Shown here piece by piece: positions 16,316 to 59,444 of a stretch of DNA of 64,000 nucleotides. Origin of the DNA: Vagococcus zengguangii (GTDB taxonomy: Bacteria > Bacillota > Bacilli > Lactobacillales > Vagococcaceae); assembly GCF_005145005.1 (NCBI RefSeq), contig NZ_CP039712.1, forward strand, positions 1,718,501 to 1,782,500. The letters run 5' to 3'. The notes beneath the pieces were generated by a model. The model searched no databases. It was not told the DNA's origin and saw nothing but the letters and a program-made list of their open reading frames with translations. The position numbers and the translations under genes were made by a program. Each line of letters begins with the position of its first letter. Positions within the stretch are counted from its first letter, which is position 1.

Positions 16316-18427
16316 TTATTTTGCGTCTTCTTTTGGTAACATTGCTTTACGAGAAGCATTCACACGACCTTGTTTGTCGATTTCTGTTACTTTGACTAAA
16401 ATTTCGTCGCCTTCTTTTACCACATCTTCAACGTTAGCTACACGTTCGTTAGCTAATTGAGAGATATGAACTAAAGCGTCTTTACCTTTGAATAAGTTAA
16501 CGAAGGCACCGAATTTTTCGATACGAACAACTTTAGCTAGGTAAGTTTCGCCAACTTTCGCTTCACGAACGATATCTTCAATAATTTCAATGGCACGTTT
16601 AATCATTGCAGCATCAGATGACGCAATACTTACGTTACCATCTTGATCGATATCAATCTTAACGCCTGTTTCATCGATGATACCGTTAATTGTGTCGCCA
16701 CCTTTACCGATAACTTCTTTGATTTTCTCAGGTTTAATTTGAATCATTTCAATCTTAGGAGCATACGCACTTAATTCTTCACGAGGCGCTTCAATAGCGG
16801 CTGTAATCACTTTTAAGATTTCCATACGTGCTTTTTTAGCTTGTGATAAAGCTTCTGTTAAGATTTGTTCTGTGATTCCTTCAATCTTAATATCCATTTG
16901 TAATGCAGTAATCCCTTGTTCAGTTCCTGCTACTTTAAAGTCCATGTCACCTAAGTGATCTTCTAAACCTTGAATATCCGTTAAGACTGTGTAGTCCTCA
17001 CCTTCCATTACTAATCCCATTGCGATACCGGCAACTGGTGCTTTAATCGGCACACCAGCATCCATAAGGGCTAAGATACCACCACAGATACTTGCTTGTG
17101 AAGATGAACCATTTGATTCTAATACTTCTGAAACCACACGGATCATGTATGGGAACTCTTCTTCACTTGGAATTACTTGTGCCATTGCACGTTCACCTAA
17201 CGCACCATGACCAATTTCACGACGTCCTGGAGAACGTGCTGGACCAGTTGAACCAACTGAGAATTGTGGGAAGTTATAGTGATGGATGAAACGTTTGCTC
17301 TCTTCAGTTCCTAAACCATCGATAATTTGGTGCTCACCTAATGGCGCTAGAGTAACTGTTGATAAAGCTTGCGTTTGTCCACGAGTAAATAATCCTGAAC
17401 CGTGAACGCGTGGTAATAACCCAACTTCAGCGGCTAACGGACGGATTTCGTCGATTTGACGACCGTCTGGACGGATTTTTTCTTTCGTAATTAAACGACG
17501 AACTTCGTCTTTTTCTAAATCTTCAGCGATTTGTTTCACTTGTTTTAATTTTTTCGCAGCGTCTTCGTCGTCTGCAAATTTTTCAGTATAAACTTTAATG
17601 ATTTCTTCTTTAACCGCTTCAATGTTATCTTCGCGTGCTAATTTCTCTTCTGTTTGAATTGCTTCAATCATGCGACCATTAAAAGCTTCAACGATTTCAG
17701 CTTTTAAGTCAGCATCGACTTGTAATAATTCAACTTCCATTTTTTCTTTACCAACAGCGGCAACGATTTCTTCTTGGAAGGCAATCATTTCTTTAATCGC
17801 AGCGTGACCGAATAATAACGCTTCTAACATTGCTTCTTCTGACACTTCTTTCGCGCCACTTTCCACCATGTTGATGGCATCTTTTGTTCCGGCAACACTT
17901 AAGTTAATATCTGATGCTTCTTCTTGTTCTGGTGTTGGGTTTATGATTAATTCCCCGTTCACGCGACCGACGTTAACCCCTGCGATTGGACCGTTGAATG
18001 GAATATCTGAAATAGCTAATGCTAATGATGAACCAAACATCGCAGCCATATCTGGTGGGCAATCTTGTTCCACACTCATAACAACGTTAGTGATTTGTAC
18101 TTCGTTACGGAAACCTTCCGCAAACATTGGACGGATTGGACGGTCGATTAAACGAGCTGTTAACGTTGCGTGTTCGCTTGGACGTCCTTCACGCTTGATG
18201 AATCCACCTGGTACTTTACCAACTGCGTACATTTTTTCTTCATAGTTTACAGTTAGTGGGAAGAAATCCACATCTTTTGCTTGTTTAGAAGCAACTGCTG
18301 CACTTAGTACGACAGTATCTCCGTAGCGTACAAACACCGAACCGTTAGCTTGTTTCGCTAATTGTCCAACTTCGACTGTAAGTGGGCGTCCGCCCCATGT
18401 TGTTGTAAAAACTTGTTTTCCTGACAT
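16316..18427 (-). CDS. pnp: Polyribonucleotide nucleotidyltransferase (PNPase)
   Basis: A 703-aa phosphorolytic 3'-5' exoribonuclease, part of RNA turnover. Domain order is standard: RNase PH 1 (about 10-215), the all-helical linker, RNase PH 2 (about 310-545), KH with [11 protein letters not shown], and S1 (about 620-695, ending VNASRKAM). The catalytic [10 protein letters not shown] segment is intact. I prefer ATG 18427, nine bases after AAAGGAG; the ATG at 18433 is only three bases from that box. It lies downstream of rpsO in the same direction, the usual Firmicutes pairing. Confidence 0.97.
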
Positions 18428-18449
18428 TGACATAGTCTCCTTTACTTTT

Positions 18450-18564
18450 GCGAAAAGTATGATGGCCTACTAAACAAATAACAAAGAAGTTATCAAGCAT
18501 TTAATGACTGATAATGATAGTTTCCCTCTTATTTGTATAGTAGAAGAACACAGCATCTTTTCGC
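18450..18564 (-). promoter_or_regulatory. pnp leader with long-range inverted repeat
   Basis: GCGAAAAG (18450-18457) and CTTTTCGC (18557-18564) are perfectly complementary and enclose about 100 bp just upstream of the pnp ribosome binding site. In the pnp transcript they could close a long stem. PNPase autocontrol through a leader stem is known in E. coli; here it is only a possibility. Confidence 0.3.
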
Positions 18565-18591
18565 GTTCCAAAATAATATTCAATAGCAAAA

Positions 18592-18621
18592 GAAAGCGAG
18601 ACCCCAAAGAGTCTCACTTTC
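18592..18621 (-). terminator. Terminator after rpsO
   Basis: Eleven-base arms at 18592-18602 and 18611-18621 with one mismatch and an 8-base loop. On the minus strand a TTTT-rich tract follows. It lies 19 bp after the rpsO stop and would limit read-through into pnp. Confidence 0.75.
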
Positions 18622-18640
18622 CTAAGTTGTTGACCAAAAA

Positions 18641-23882: not shown

Positions 23883-23918
23883 AAAATAAGACATGACAAA
23901 ACTGTCATGTCTTATTTT
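23883..23918. terminator. Bidirectional terminator after nagA
   Basis: Perfect 16-bp arms at 23883-23898 and 23903-23918 with a 4-base loop and A/T-rich flanks. It follows the repeat array behind nagA. Confidence 0.85.
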
Positions 23919-23919
23919 A

Positions 23920-24068
23920 TCGGAGTCTAACGCGCCCTAAAGCACTTTTCTTAATCCGGCTTTCTGGCGCATCTTTCTCGGTGATATGGAACAATTCTCA
24001 AAAATTACGTTGTAATTTTCGTGATTGTACGCATATCACTCAAAAGATAACCGCGCCATCAAGTACTT
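23920..24068 (-). repeat. Structured repeat array A: one full and one partial unit
   Basis: On the minus strand unit A1 runs from 24068 to about 23951 and begins AAGTACTTGATGG, 3 bases after the nagA stop. Nested complementary segments (GGCGC/GCGCC, ATCTTT/AAAGAT, GTGATATG/CATATCAC, ACAAT/ATTGT and an inner hairpin) fold it into one long hairpin with a CACGA/TTGAGA internal loop. It closes with GAAAGCCGGATTAAG. A partial unit A2 starts at 23947, 121 bp later, and is cut by the terminator hairpin. Confidence 0.85.
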
Positions 24069-24070
24069 TT

Positions 24071-25216
24071 TTATGCTTCGTATCTTACGTTGCCGTCTAG
24101 GTACGTTGCTTCTAGATCCATATCTTTTGATAGGACGATGAAGTCTGCATCACGGCCAGGTGTGATTGAACCACATTTATCTTCGATATTACAGCTTACT
24201 GCTGGGATTAATGACGCCATCATCACTGCTTGTTCAGGTGTTGCGACACCCCACTCCACAACATTTTTCAACGCTTCTTTTAATTTCAAAATACTTCCAG
24301 CTAAATTACCTTCAGCCATACGTGCTGTTCCGTTTGCTACAACAACTGGGAACTCACCTAACATATATTCACCATCTGGCATGCCCCCTGCCATCATACA
24401 GTCGGTGATTAAAGCAATGTGATCATGACCTTTTGTTTTAATTAGCACATCGACTGCTTTAGGATGAACATGATGTCCATCACAAATTAATTCAGCATAG
24501 ACATCATGTAAGGTCATAACTGCCCCTACCATACCAGGCTCACGGTGGTGTAAACCACTCATCCCATTAAAAGCATGTACAAAAACACTTGCCCCATTTT
24601 CAGCAGCAGCTTGGGCTTGGACAACTGTCGCATCACTATGACCTAACGCAACAACTACGCCTTGATTAGTGACTTCACGGACGAATTCCGCAACACCTTC
24701 GCGCTCTGGTGCTAGAGCAATCTTTTTAATACGTCCACCTGATGCTTCTTGCCATTTATTGAAAATTTCTAAGCTTGGATCGCTCATGTAAGCTGGGTTT
24801 TGAGCCCCTTTATATTTTTCTGTAAAGAATGGGCCTTCAAAATAAATCCCTTGAATTTTGGCACCATCAACGTCATCAGCCACTTGACCGATTGTACGAG
24901 CAACGTCTGTTAATAACTCATGATCAGACGTTAAGGTTGTAGGAAGATATGACGTTACACCACATGATAGTAATGCTTCAGACATCACTTTAATTCCTTC
25001 AGGATCATTGTCCATTACATCATGGTTCATATAACCATGAATGTGAGTATCTACTAAACCTGGCGCAATCCATTTGCCAGTGTAATCAACGATTTCTGCG
25101 CCTTCAGGTCGCTCAAAAAACACTTGACCAAATTTGCCATCTTCAACTTCTAAATAGGCTGGGCCAACTGTACCAGTTTTTAAGAAAAATTTGTCTGCAT
25201 AAACATAATATTTCAT
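24071..25216 (-). CDS. nagA: N-acetylglucosamine-6-phosphate deacetylase
   Basis: A 381-aa amidohydrolase-fold enzyme that converts GlcNAc-6-P to glucosamine-6-P and acetate in amino-sugar use and cell-wall recycling. Metal-site motifs are present: DTHIHGY (His 58, His 60), FEGPF with the conserved Glu, ALGHSDA, FVHAFNGM and LITDCMMAGG. The ATG at 25216 lies 8 bases after AGAGG; a start at 25222 would be only two bases from it. The structured repeat array A begins 3 bp after its stop. nagB is not in the window. Confidence 0.96.
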   Translation of the reverse strand: MKYYVYADKFFLKTGTVGPAYLEVEDGKFGQVFFERPEGAEIVDYTGKWIAPGLVDTHIHGYMNHDVMDNDPEGIKVMSEALLSCGVTSYLPTTLTSDHELLTDVARTIGQVADDVDGAKIQGIYFEGPFFTEKYKGAQNPAYMSDPSLEIFNKWQEASGGRIKKIALAPEREGVAEFVREVTNQGVVVALGHSDATVVQAQAAAENGASVFVHAFNGMSGLHHREPGMVGAVMTLHDVYAELICDGHHVHPKAVDVLIKTKGHDHIALITDCMMAGGMPDGEYMLGEFPVVVANGTARMAEGNLAGSILKLKEALKNVVEWGVATPEQAVMMASLIPAVSCNIEDKCGSITPGRDADFIVLSKDMDLEATYLDGNVRYEA

Positions 25217-25278
25217 TATCATAACCTCTTCCGTTAATTTATTTAACTATTACCTACAAACTACTCTTTTTTTCAAAA

Positions 25279-29395: not shown

Positions 29396-30904
29396 ATGAA
29401 CGAAGAACAAACTGCCCTATTTACTATTTTCGGAGCGACTGGCGACTTAGCTCAACGTAAACTATATCCTTCCCTATTTCGTTTATTTCGAAAAGGATTT
29501 ATAAAGGAACATTTTGCTGTAATTGGAACGGCACGACGTGAATGGTCAGACGACTATTATCGTGAAATCGTGACAACTTCTATTAACAGCTTAAAACCAA
29601 CCGAAGAAGAAGCGAAAGCTTTCGCTTCACATTTCTATTATCAATCTCACGATGTAACAGATACAACCCACTATACAAATTTAAAAAATTTAGCAGATAA
29701 ATTAGATGCTGAATACAACTTAGAAGGCAACCGTTTATTCTATTTAGCAATGGCACCTAACTTTTTTGGTACCATAGTTAACCATCTAAGCTCCGAAAAA
29801 ATTATGACTGAAAATGGCTTTAACCGTTTAGTCATCGAAAAACCTTTTGGAACTAGCTATGAGACAGCCGCTGAATTAAATGAGCAAATTCGTGCAGTCT
29901 TCTCAGAAGATCAAATATTCCGTATCGATCATTACTTAGGTAAAGAGATGATTCAAAACATTTCAGCTGTTCGTTTTGGTAATAATATTTTTGAATCACT
30001 TTGGAACAATCGCTATATCGACAACATTCAAGTCACACTAGCTGAAGACTTGGGAGTTGAAGAACGTGGCGGTTATTACGATAAAAGTGGTGCTTTAAAA
30101 GACATGATTCAAAATCATATCTTACAAGTAGTTGCATTGCTTGCAATGGAAGCACCAAATAACTTTACCGAAAAAGAAATTCGTGAAGAAAAAATTAAAG
30201 CCTTAAACGCAGTGAAAATTTACAACGAACAAGAAGCATTAGACAATTTTGTTCGTGGACAATATGTCGCAAATCGTTTCAAAAATGAAGACATCATCTC
30301 ATATGTAGATGAGCCTAACGTTAATCCTGAATCTCGTACTGAAACGTTCGTAGCAGGTAAGTTAGAAATCAATAACTTCCGTTGGAAAGGTGTGCCGTTC
30401 TATATTCGTACAGGTAAACAATTATCAACAAAAGCTGCTCGAATTAATATAGTATTTAAAGCAACACCAACCAATATTTTCTCACAAGAAGACATCTGTG
30501 AGAAATTACCACAAAATATTTTAACGATTTATATTCAACCAACAGAAGGGTTCTCGCTATCACTAAACGGTAAAGAACCTGGACCTGGCTTTGAAATCGA
30601 TCCAGTTAAATTAGATTTCCGCACACCAACAGATGTTGTGGCAAATAGCCCTGAAGCTTACGAAAAATTAATCTTAGATGCCCTACAAGGTGACGCGACG
30701 AACTTTACTCACTGGGATGAAGTGTCACAATCATGGCGTATAGTCGATGTTATCAGACAAGCTTGGGATAACGACTCACAACCAATTCCAACCTATCCAG
30801 CCGGTACGATGGGCCCAGCCGAAGCCTTTGACTTACTAGCCAAAGACCAACACGAATGGGTCTACAAACCAGACGAATGGTACAGAGAACACGGGTTACT
30901 GTAG
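29396..30904 (+). CDS. zwf: Glucose-6-phosphate 1-dehydrogenase
   Basis: A 502-aa enzyme of the oxidative pentose phosphate pathway that makes NADPH. The nucleotide fold shows FGATGDLAQRKL at 12-23. RIDHYLGKEMIQN carries the catalytic His and substrate Lys, and EKPFGT, the AEDLGVEERGGYYD stretch and YIRTGKQL are conserved. An AGG-containing box precedes the ATG. It follows the DtxR-type regulator closely. The stop codon TAG is shared with the first bases of structured repeat array B. Confidence 0.97.
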   Translation: MNEEQTALFTIFGATGDLAQRKLYPSLFRLFRKGFIKEHFAVIGTARREWSDDYYREIVTTSINSLKPTEEEAKAFASHFYYQSHDVTDTTHYTNLKNLADKLDAEYNLEGNRLFYLAMAPNFFGTIVNHLSSEKIMTENGFNRLVIEKPFGTSYETAAELNEQIRAVFSEDQIFRIDHYLGKEMIQNISAVRFGNNIFESLWNNRYIDNIQVTLAEDLGVEERGGYYDKSGALKDMIQNHILQVVALLAMEAPNNFTEKEIREEKIKALNAVKIYNEQEALDNFVRGQYVANRFKNEDIISYVDEPNVNPESRTETFVAGKLEINNFRWKGVPFYIRTGKQLSTKAARINIVFKATPTNIFSQEDICEKLPQNILTIYIQPTEGFSLSLNGKEPGPGFEIDPVKLDFRTPTDVVANSPEAYEKLILDALQGDATNFTHWDEVSQSWRIVDVIRQAWDNDSQPIPTYPAGTMGPAEAFDLLAKDQHEWVYKPDEWYREHGLL

Positions 30905-31080
30905 GTGCTTGAGAAGGCGATCAGCTCCGATAAAAATCTCAAATACGATGAAAATTGTGCAACAATTTTTGAGAGTATTTAAGATTTTTCTGAGGAGTTA
31001 CCTTCGAAAGCCCGTTTTTTCAAGTGTTTGAGGACATGTTTTACTTTTGAGCAATATGCGCAGGACGACGAAAATATTAT
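30903..31080 (+). repeat. Structured repeat array B: one full and one half unit
   Basis: Unit B1 (30903-31020) begins AGGTGCTTGAG, whose first two bases belong to the zwf TAG. Nested stems GAAGG/CCTTC, GCTCC/GGAGT, a long AATCT...AAATAC arm with GTATTT...AGATT, and an inner AAATTGT/ACAATTT hairpin enclose the GATGA/TTGAGA loop. It closes with GAAAGCCCG. Unit B2 starts at 31022, 119 bp later, and keeps only its left half, ending near 31080. Confidence 0.85.
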
Positions 31081-31110: not shown

Positions 31111-31148
31111 AAAAGGTTCGCCGGCACTTTGCCAGCGAACCTTTTTTT
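31111..31148. terminator. Bidirectional terminator between zwf and the PH-domain gene
   Basis: Arms 31111-31125 and 31131-31145 with one mismatch and a 5-base loop. A seven-T run follows on the plus strand. Confidence 0.85.
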
Positions 31149-38864: not shown

Positions 38865-39110
38865 CAAAAAAAGCCCTTGTTTAAAAAAACAAGGACGAAT
38901 GAATTCACACGTGGTACCACCTACATTTGAAAGAGACCGAGTCTACTTTCTTCTCAAACGATGTAACGCGTCGTACGCGAGATGGCTTAATCAACATCTA
39001 TCTCCAGAGTGTCCTTCCCTCTTTTTCAATGAAACAACTCTCAGCAACTGTTGTTCTCTCTTAACATCTTCAAAGTGGTACTCTCTCTATCTTCGATTTT
39101 AAATTGTTTA
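38865..39110 (-). promoter_or_regulatory. T-box leader of hisS-aspS
   Basis: The minus strand carries a full T-box. Stem I begins with an AGAGAGAGTA segment near 39080. Its distal strand holds GGACACTC (GACAC at 39009-39013), an overlapping Asp codon GAC and His codon CAC. The T-box proper, GGTGGTACCACG, lies at 38910-38921. An intrinsic terminator follows (CCTTGTTT 38875-38882 with AAACAAGG 38887-38894, then a seven-U run). Uncharged tRNA would favour the antiterminator. A TTGACA -35 lies at 39142-39147. Confidence 0.93.
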
Positions 39111-48924: not shown

Positions 48925-49136
48925 TGTTTCATGGTTTTCAATTTATTCCTAAAGTACCAATGTTTAATAATCGGATCATTAATCTACCAAAAGAAAACCT
49001 TTTCATTTGTAAAATTTCTTGAGCAATCTTCATTGCCTGATTATTTATTTTATGCTACCATTGGGTTAAGGAAATCTGTAATGTGCGCGTCGCTTCACTT
49101 CTGTGTTGACCGAACATTTTTAGTATTATATCGGGA

Positions 49137-49312
49137 TTCAAACTGATTAAAAAGAAAACAGGCCTTTTCACTTGGAAGTTTGACGTTTATTCTATGAAAC
49201 CCACCTGCATTACTAGCGGGTTCAATACTACGAAACGACTAACGGCATCGAACGGATTTCTTCTTTATTAAAACAATTTCAAGCAATTTGCCAACTCGCA
49301 AATTGCTTTTTC
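49137..49312 (+). ncRNA. Candidate structured small RNA, perhaps 6S RNA
   Basis: About 175 nt with no reading frame end in a clear terminator. A closing stem of about 12 bp with single bulges can form between 49144-49158 and 49259-49273. Inside it CGTTT/AAACG with flanking pairs and a GAA-CCC / GGG-TTC hairpin (49196-49223) give a rod with bubbles. That outline and size resemble 6S RNA, and I recall 6S genes lying near rarA in Gram-positive bacteria. The promoter is weak (TTGACC at 49106, short spacing). This fold was done by eye. Confidence 0.35.
49281..49312 (+). terminator. Terminator without an upstream ORF
   Basis: Perfect 11-bp arms at 49281-49291 and 49298-49308 with a 6-base loop and a T tract on the plus strand, 357 bp after the rarA stop. 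Confidence 0.85.
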
Positions 49313-58250: not shown

Positions 58251-58525
58251 AAGTGATTGAGAACGCGTTAAGCTCCGATATAAATCTCAAATACGACGAA
58301 AATATTGCAAATATTTTTGAGAGTATTTAGATTTTTCTGAGGAGTTGCGTTCGAAATCCGGATTAAGAGAGGTGCTTGAGGCATCGTTTAGCTTCAAGTA
58401 ATATGTATGAAGTGACGAAAGGATTAAAAATCCTTTTGAGAACTTCACCATATTACCGCAGAAGCTGATGCCGAAAGCCCGTTTATCACAAGGTGCTTGA
58501 GGTTACGGTTAACTTCCTAGCATTC
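58251..58525 (+). repeat. Structured repeat array C: two full units and one partial
   Basis: Unit C1 spans 58251-58368, C2 58370-58490 and partial C3 58491-58525, a period of 119-121 bp. In C1 GAACGC pairs with GCGTTC, AGCTCC with GGAGTT, and AAATATT with AATATTT. In C2 the same places read GGCATC/GATGCC, AGCTTC/GAAGCT, GTAATATG/CATATTAC, GAAGT/ACTTC and AAGGATT/AATCCTT. Both keep GACGA and TTGAGA around the inner hairpin. C2 closes with CGAAAGCCCG, C1 with CGAAATCCGG. The array ends at the terminator of ppsR. Confidence 0.9.
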
Positions 58526-58530
58526 AAAAA

Positions 58531-58554
58531 AGAAGTTGAGAGAACTCAACTTCT
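58531..58554. terminator. Terminator overlapping the ppsR stop codon
   Basis: Perfect 10-bp arms at 58531-58540 and 58545-58554 with an AGAA loop. The ppsR TGA lies in the stem. T/A tracts stand on both sides, so it may work in either direction. Confidence 0.8.
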
Positions 58555-59355
58555 TCCTTTTATCTTTTCTTCAATTTCCGCGGCCACTTCTTCAATCGAA
58601 CGTTTATCTGATGAAATCAATTGTGCACCGACTGTTTCATAAACCTCATAGGCATAGCGTAATTCAGCTTCAATTCGTTCCATGCTTGCATAGCTACTAT
58701 CTTCATTTAAGCCCAAATACTCCAAACGCGCTTTGCGAACTTCTAAAATGGATTCGGGTTTAGCGATTAATCCAAAAATTTTCTCTTTAGGAATATTAAA
58801 TAATTCTTCAGGTAAGGCTACTTCAGGCATCAAAGGTAAATTTGCTACTTTGTAAGACTTTACGGCTAAATACATGCTTAAAGGCGTTTTCGCCGAACGT
58901 GAAATCCCTAAAATTAAGATATCAGCTTTTTCAAAACCCTTAGGATCTTTACCGTCATCATATTTTTCGGCAAATTCAATCGCAGCCACACTCGCCAATT
59001 TTTGCTCTGGCATAGTGTAACGCGCACCAGGCTCTTCTCTAGATTCAATCCCCGTTTGGCTCGTAATCAATTGTGTCAAAGGCGACATTAAATCAACAAA
59101 CCCTAAGCCTGTTCGTTTAGCAAAAGATTGAGCGGATGCTAATAGCTCATGGTTTACCAAGGTTGCTACGACAATCGCCTTATTGTTTAGTGCGCCTCTT
59201 AAGGCAAACTTCAAATCATCTTCATTCGTCACAAAAGCAAAACGTCTTACTTCCAGTTCAATACTCTGATAAAACTGTGACTCAACCGCCGAGACAATTG
59301 TTTGGGCTGATTCCCCCACCGAATCAGAAATAATATAAACCAACACTTTTTTCAT
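58546..59355 (-). CDS. ppsR: PPDK regulatory kinase/pyrophosphorylase-type protein
   Basis: A 269-aa DUF299 protein, a combined ADP-dependent kinase and phosphate-dependent phosphorylase that switches pyruvate phosphate dikinase or PEP synthase. The P-loop-like LGISRSAKTPLSMYLA and the ISDSVGESAQT start are typical. The target enzyme is not in the window. ATG 59355 has AAGGAG 8 bases upstream; the GTG at 59364 is nearer the box. The stop codon lies in the terminator hairpin. Confidence 0.92.
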   Translation of the reverse strand: MKKVLVYIISDSVGESAQTIVSAVESQFYQSIELEVRRFAFVTNEDDLKFALRGALNNKAIVVATLVNHELLASAQSFAKRTGLGFVDLMSPLTQLITSQTGIESREEPGARYTMPEQKLASVAAIEFAEKYDDGKDPKGFEKADILILGISRSAKTPLSMYLAVKSYKVANLPLMPEVALPEELFNIPKEKIFGLIAKPESILEVRKARLEYLGLNEDSSYASMERIEAELRYAYEVYETVGAQLISSDKRSIEEVAAEIEEKIKGRS

Positions 59356-59444
59356 CACACTCACTCCTTACTTATTCATCTTAGCAACCATTATACCCAA
59401 TCGCCTCTCATTTGACCTTAAACTTGCTTACCTAATTACCTAGT

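Follow-up and report, generated by a model that had tools for sequence, protein, structure and literature searches.

Enterococcal repeats and the window arrays

BOX and RUP of Streptococcus pneumoniae are intergenic repeats of a modular or MITE-like nature that are able to fold, BOX being built from A, B and C parts (the boxA-boxB-boxC modules). Enterococci carry EFAR elements, which an abstract of 2007 is said to describe as 42-650 bp long, assembled from 16 sequence types and absent from some strains, where empty sites are found. In E. coli, palindromic REP sequences of 20-40 bp lie at gene ends and are tied to Y1 transposases. Where a REP lies no more than 15 nt from a stop codon, ribosomes stall and translation falls (Liang et al., as reported in PMC12306157), and the termini of GTAG REPs often supply the stop codon itself, according to PMC3733652, which also lists EFAR elements as enterococcal MITEs. 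Efa-1 of Enterococcus faecalis is a 163-bp intergenic repeat of two adjacent stem-loops, present in 65 copies (PMC2267715).

The window analysed here, a stretch of 64,000 nucleotides from Vagococcus zengguangii, carries arrays of a palindromic unit whose full copies measure 115-117 bp and recur with a period of 119-121 bp. The features are as follows.

58251-58365, plus strand: unit 1, full; outermost stem P1 GUGAUU/AAUCC, P2 GAACGC/GCGTTC; 98.7 bits with covariance model R2; folding z-score -4.9
58370-58485, plus strand: unit 2, full; P1 GGUGCUU/AAGCCC, P2 GGCATC/GATGCC; 116.2 bits with R2; folding z-score -8.7
58491-58518, plus strand: unit 3, truncated to its 5' half, read in the sequence
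58530-58555, plus strand: terminator-like hairpin at the 3' end of this array, whose complement ends the minus-strand gene 58546-59364
30903-31018, plus strand: full unit, the first bases of which form the TAG stop of the glucose-6-phosphate dehydrogenase (G6PD) gene 29396-30904; 94.6 bits with R2; folding z-score -5.7
31022-31079, plus strand: truncated second unit, read in the sequence, followed by a terminator hairpin near 31111-31147
23952-24068, minus strand: full unit that follows immediately on the stop of the minus-strand amidohydrolase gene 24071-25222; 106.3 bits with R2; folding z-score -5.3
23917-23947, minus strand: truncated 5' half unit, read in the sequence, followed by a terminator hairpin near 23890-23911

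No shuffled version folded as well as any of the four full units. The original prediction of three consecutive units, two of them full, with their period, the exchanged P2 pairs and both inner hairpins, is thus borne out for 58251-58518 in the sequence and by scoring with R2. The two further regions that it named, 23920-24068 and 30903-31080, also follow the same plan and score with R2, with the correction that the former unit sits on the minus strand.

The prediction had also stated that it knew of no named family with this sequence. This holds for Rfam, in which the 58251 array has no match at the gathering threshold or at E<=1, but is not supported by the literature, as units of E. faecalis in which unit and terminator hairpin together form about 170 bp with two adjacent stem-loops fit both EFAR and Efa-1. 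The likeness extends to the host group, to multi-copy intergenic palindromic repeats in tens of copies, and to homologous sites without the element (in the relatives G003 and G001), and the EFAR traits of size range, modular types and empty sites all have counterparts in the family of the window genome. However, the size and the two stem-loops fit the E. faecalis copies only; those of the window are mainly tandem 121-bp units of a single hairpin, lack a second hairpin of their own and rely on the terminator that belongs to the gene. The window family covaries and is placed strictly at stop codons, two traits that do not appear in the EFAR descriptions consulted. We infer that the window repeats are of the EFAR kind, an assignment that goes by these descriptions. 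The family thus looks like a widespread one of an already described kind, here extended, and not like a private new RNA. From BOX it differs, by description, in repeating the whole hairpin unit and not A, B and C parts. In an E. faecalis record nine units were found in 747 kb, and most enterococcal matches lie under no annotated gene.

Other Rfam matches in the window are a T-box leader (38888-39102, minus strand) and a 6S RNA (49070-49262, plus strand), both above threshold, and the Listeria small RNA rliD at 18250-18623 (plus strand; 63.8 bits, gathering threshold 50). The last overlaps the start of a 705-aa minus-strand gene, and rliD outside Listeria may be of interest.

Fold and covariation of the unit

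The unit folds as one long hairpin of ~117 nt. Its outermost stem, P1, joins RG-U-GNUU to AANCC with a single bulged U and is followed by a tandem GA/GA mismatch. Inward of this lies P2, whose six pairs vary freely, and then a bulge of four bases, in most cases GUUU. P3, with AGCUUC(C), leads to another GA/GA mismatch, beyond which come first an AU-rich and then a variable stem. A GA/AGA mismatch separates these from the terminal hairpin CGAAAA...UUUUUG, which has a G.U pair beside its base. Two elements first described as fixed 5' and 3' boxes are the strands of P1: they pair (GCUU/AAGC, GAUU/AAUC), leaving the tandem GA/GA mismatch, and they covary. Within the proposed loop residues GACGA and TTGAGA, GA and AGA are indeed unpaired, whereas the remainder is paired (C-G, G.U, A-U). 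The GA/GA and GA/AGA mismatches and the four-base bulge are retained in most units. The first GA/GA mismatch is nevertheless not universal, since E. faecalis copies, read by eye, have base pairs in its place; it reappears in one copy (L235) from family f17, found in a class-wide sample. A 169-bp variant at loci L128-L132 of genome G051 carries, in the inner stem, a 51-bp insert with its own hairpin, identical in several copies.

In a first alignment, made with MAFFT without structure information, 94.7% of pair cells held standard pairs, 26 of the 42 pairs had changed on both sides, and the covariation score was 0.501, against 0.183 for shuffled alignments and 0.05-0.12 for slid partners. A tree-aware null was then applied to 64 distinct units from this genome and its sister genome, with columns evolved independently on a FastTree tree; under this home-made version of the R-scape idea, used on a second alignment that had been fitted to the model, 15 pairs were significant at E<0.05. 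Fourteen of them belong to the structure, and the fifteenth (columns 2-144) lengthens P1 by one pair. The covariation originally claimed is therefore real and exceeds what relatedness alone would give. At pair positions, G.U outnumbers A.C on the sense strand by 129 to 37 (3.5 to 1), which points to the sense strand as the folded molecule. Three differing pairs of orthologous units show 11 changes in ~236 paired positions vs 16 in ~115 unpaired ones, numbers that are small and that suggest constraint by their direction.

Dispersal and placement at stop codons

A covariance model found 44 units in about 24 arrays across the genome; 20 of these units had gone into building it, so that they are not scored independently, whereas a blastn search with the 58251 region is independent, and this returned 18 further genomic places (best 1.9e-61), most copies within the genome being clearly diverged. 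Units stand singly or in tandem at ~121 bp, mostly on the gene's own strand. In 22 of the 24 arrays, the first unit begins between -10 and +5 nt relative to the end of a stop codon whose gene lies on the same strand; in nine arrays its first base coincides with the final base of that codon. The last codons and TGA stop of a DUF951 gene lie inside a unit (read by eye), and the G6PD protein, its TAG stop supplied by the unit, is one residue shorter than its counterpart in the sister genome. A truncated 5' half and then a terminator commonly close an array. In a genome of a second genus (G025), 35 of 42 arrays lie behind a same-strand gene, and for 30 of the 42 the distance between that gene's stop and the array start is within -22 to +10 nt. 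Genes in these counts were long open frames, taken without annotation, and array surroundings were read from the sequence stretches around matches; the placement has a P of about 1e-13 in each of the two genera against uniform insertion around gene ends, which is a crude null. Copies in E. faecalis and others of enterococcal type mostly lie 2-15 nt behind a stop, the distances in G051 being more scattered. When lone 5' ends were searched for by pattern, most matches were background (93 matches vs 34 in the reversed control).

The 58251 array is one of the two exceptions. It runs antisense to both of its neighbours, with the promoter side of a MerR/TipAS gene at one end and the terminator of a kinase-pyrophosphorylase gene at the other, and is therefore not the 3' UTR of either.

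Searching relatives with a covariance model, as had been envisaged at the outset, gave many matches: when 395 genomes of the order were sampled, R2, built from 136 units, had matches in 100 of them, spread over 32 of 80 genera, with copy numbers that are lower bounds as only nine candidates were scored per genome. Genomes of other genera hold tens of copies. The class-wide sample adds family f17, of which three loci share the plan of the window units, and single weaker matches elsewhere. The carriers known by name are Enterococcus faecalis, E. faecium, E. raffinosus, Lactococcus and Lactiplantibacillus plasmid records, and a scan of genome contigs had a Streptococcaceae MAG as its sole match. 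By blast, the window unit matched no plasmid and units of other genera matched many. The repeat also occurs in plasmid records of P. aeruginosa (NZ_CP151545.1) and E. coli (OL539428.1), in the latter immediately after an efrB gene of enterococcal type; both cases are likely to reflect assembly contamination or recent transfer. Eighty short records labelled Listeria phage LM 4-11-1 / 4-14-1 (OR84xxxx) carry chromosomal-type repeats and resemble bacterial DNA labelled as phage.

Within the genus, units are present in the window genome and in the sister genome G003 (~70-88% DNA identity across the window) and absent from G001 and G002. At the window sites 24071 and 30904, G003 has no element, just a short spacer between stop codon and terminator, and G001 has the gene pair of the 58251 array without it. 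Of ten G003 regions examined, eight share array sites with the window genome; where read in detail, these differ in unit number or hairpin type, one site having two units in G003 and half a unit in the window genome. The original contrast of selection on structure with duplication is thus too simple: the copies are dispersed and patchy among sister species, some orthologous sites lack them, and within arrays they have been reshuffled as modules. What is seen here is a family of mobile repeats that conserves its fold.

Taken together, these data are probably best explained by dispersed, non-coding, once-mobile palindromic repeats of EFAR type that act as structured 3' UTRs. By this account, some enzyme would have copied the unit, a non-autonomous element, into the ends of genes; once inserted, the unit would be transcribed as a structured 3' UTR, its fold being retained because the single-stranded sense strand, as RNA or as ssDNA during movement, must fold. 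Since its stem begins 0-10 nt after the stop codon, the hairpin would be expected to run into the ribosome as it terminates and, like the REP sequences of E. coli, to hold off 3' exonucleases; a modest effect on expression of the gene in front may therefore be expected. Enterococcal short palindromic repeats are usually treated as inert MITEs; here, one family is tied to stop codons in two genera with near base-level precision, is constrained in its fold and ranges beyond enterococci to many Lactobacillales and further. This raises the questions of whether such repeats tune translation termination or mRNA decay in Gram-positives like REPs, and of how they come to lie at stop codons. With a covariance model of the family, tens of 3' UTRs that now carry no label could be annotated in each genome.

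It is also conceivable, although unlikely, that the unit is a functional cis-acting RNA, either a 3'-UTR regulator or a source of small RNA, that is selected in each gene, duplication accounting for its origin only. Its constant position at stop codons, on the strand of the gene and in both genera, would agree with this, as would the pairing kept between orthologous units, which are ~89-100% alike vs 75-92% for neighbouring DNA. However, the units are patchy within the genus, the empty orthologous sites show no visible compensation, and the identified host genes (amidohydrolase, G6PD, DUF951) share no identified common function. A farther-reaching proposal, which we regard as quite improbable, is that these are structured mobile elements of the Bacilli at large that insert in connection with the termination of translation or with mRNA 3' ends: they would enter at the TA of stop codons in sense orientation, supply the last stop base and replace the 3' UTR with a folded one, possibly via a single-stranded intermediate and an uncharacterised enzyme.

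Mechanical and transpositional alternatives

Long quasi-palindromes, which the units are, are substrates for template switching. Template switching during replication could correct such long imperfect inverted repeats and so make paired changes mechanically, with no selection on structure. This is very improbable here, as it should remove the GA/GA and GA/AGA mismatches and the four-base bulge that persist in most units, and as correction of double-stranded DNA does not predict the one-strand excess of G.U over A.C.

Slighter still is the probability that the repeats belong to a REP/RAYT system or to an IS630/RUP-type MITE system, moved by a Y1 or a TA-targeting DDE transposase. Many copies do have TA at their 5' border and, like the REPs of E. 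coli, the units are palindromic and lie at gene ends, some supplying stop codons as GTAG REP termini do (PMC3733652). However, they are about 117 bp long, not 20-40 bp with a GTAG or CGTC tag, and neither the Y1 transposase (PF01797) nor DDE_3 (IS630/Tc1) has a match in the window genome or in G025, which speaks against membership of REP/RAYT and of RUP-like MITEs of IS630 alike. Y1 transposase was found in 7 of 15 element-positive vs 18 of 45 element-negative genomes. A reverse transcriptase likewise had no match in the window genome. The mobiliser of the once-mobile repeats may accordingly be an enzyme of another type, or one since lost from the genome. With most copies diverged and no mobilising enzyme matched, there is little sign of present-day movement in this genome. 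Near-identical plasmids compared for polymorphic insertions gave matches that broke at other rearrangements and no clean empty site.

Simple tandem duplication at one ancestral site, despite the constant 121-bp period, is refuted as a whole account by the separate sites, the mixed hairpin types side by side and the copies in other genera and on plasmids. Local duplication is nonetheless a likely means of array growth. Some adjacent units are 97-98% alike, and spacers vary less within an array than from one array to another, as does the 5' box, so that arrays also grow or are homogenised locally. In the window genome and G003, each array has its own 4-base spacer and outer-stem variant, although the hairpin modules within one array differ, and in array L156 one spacer is identical to the 5' flank.
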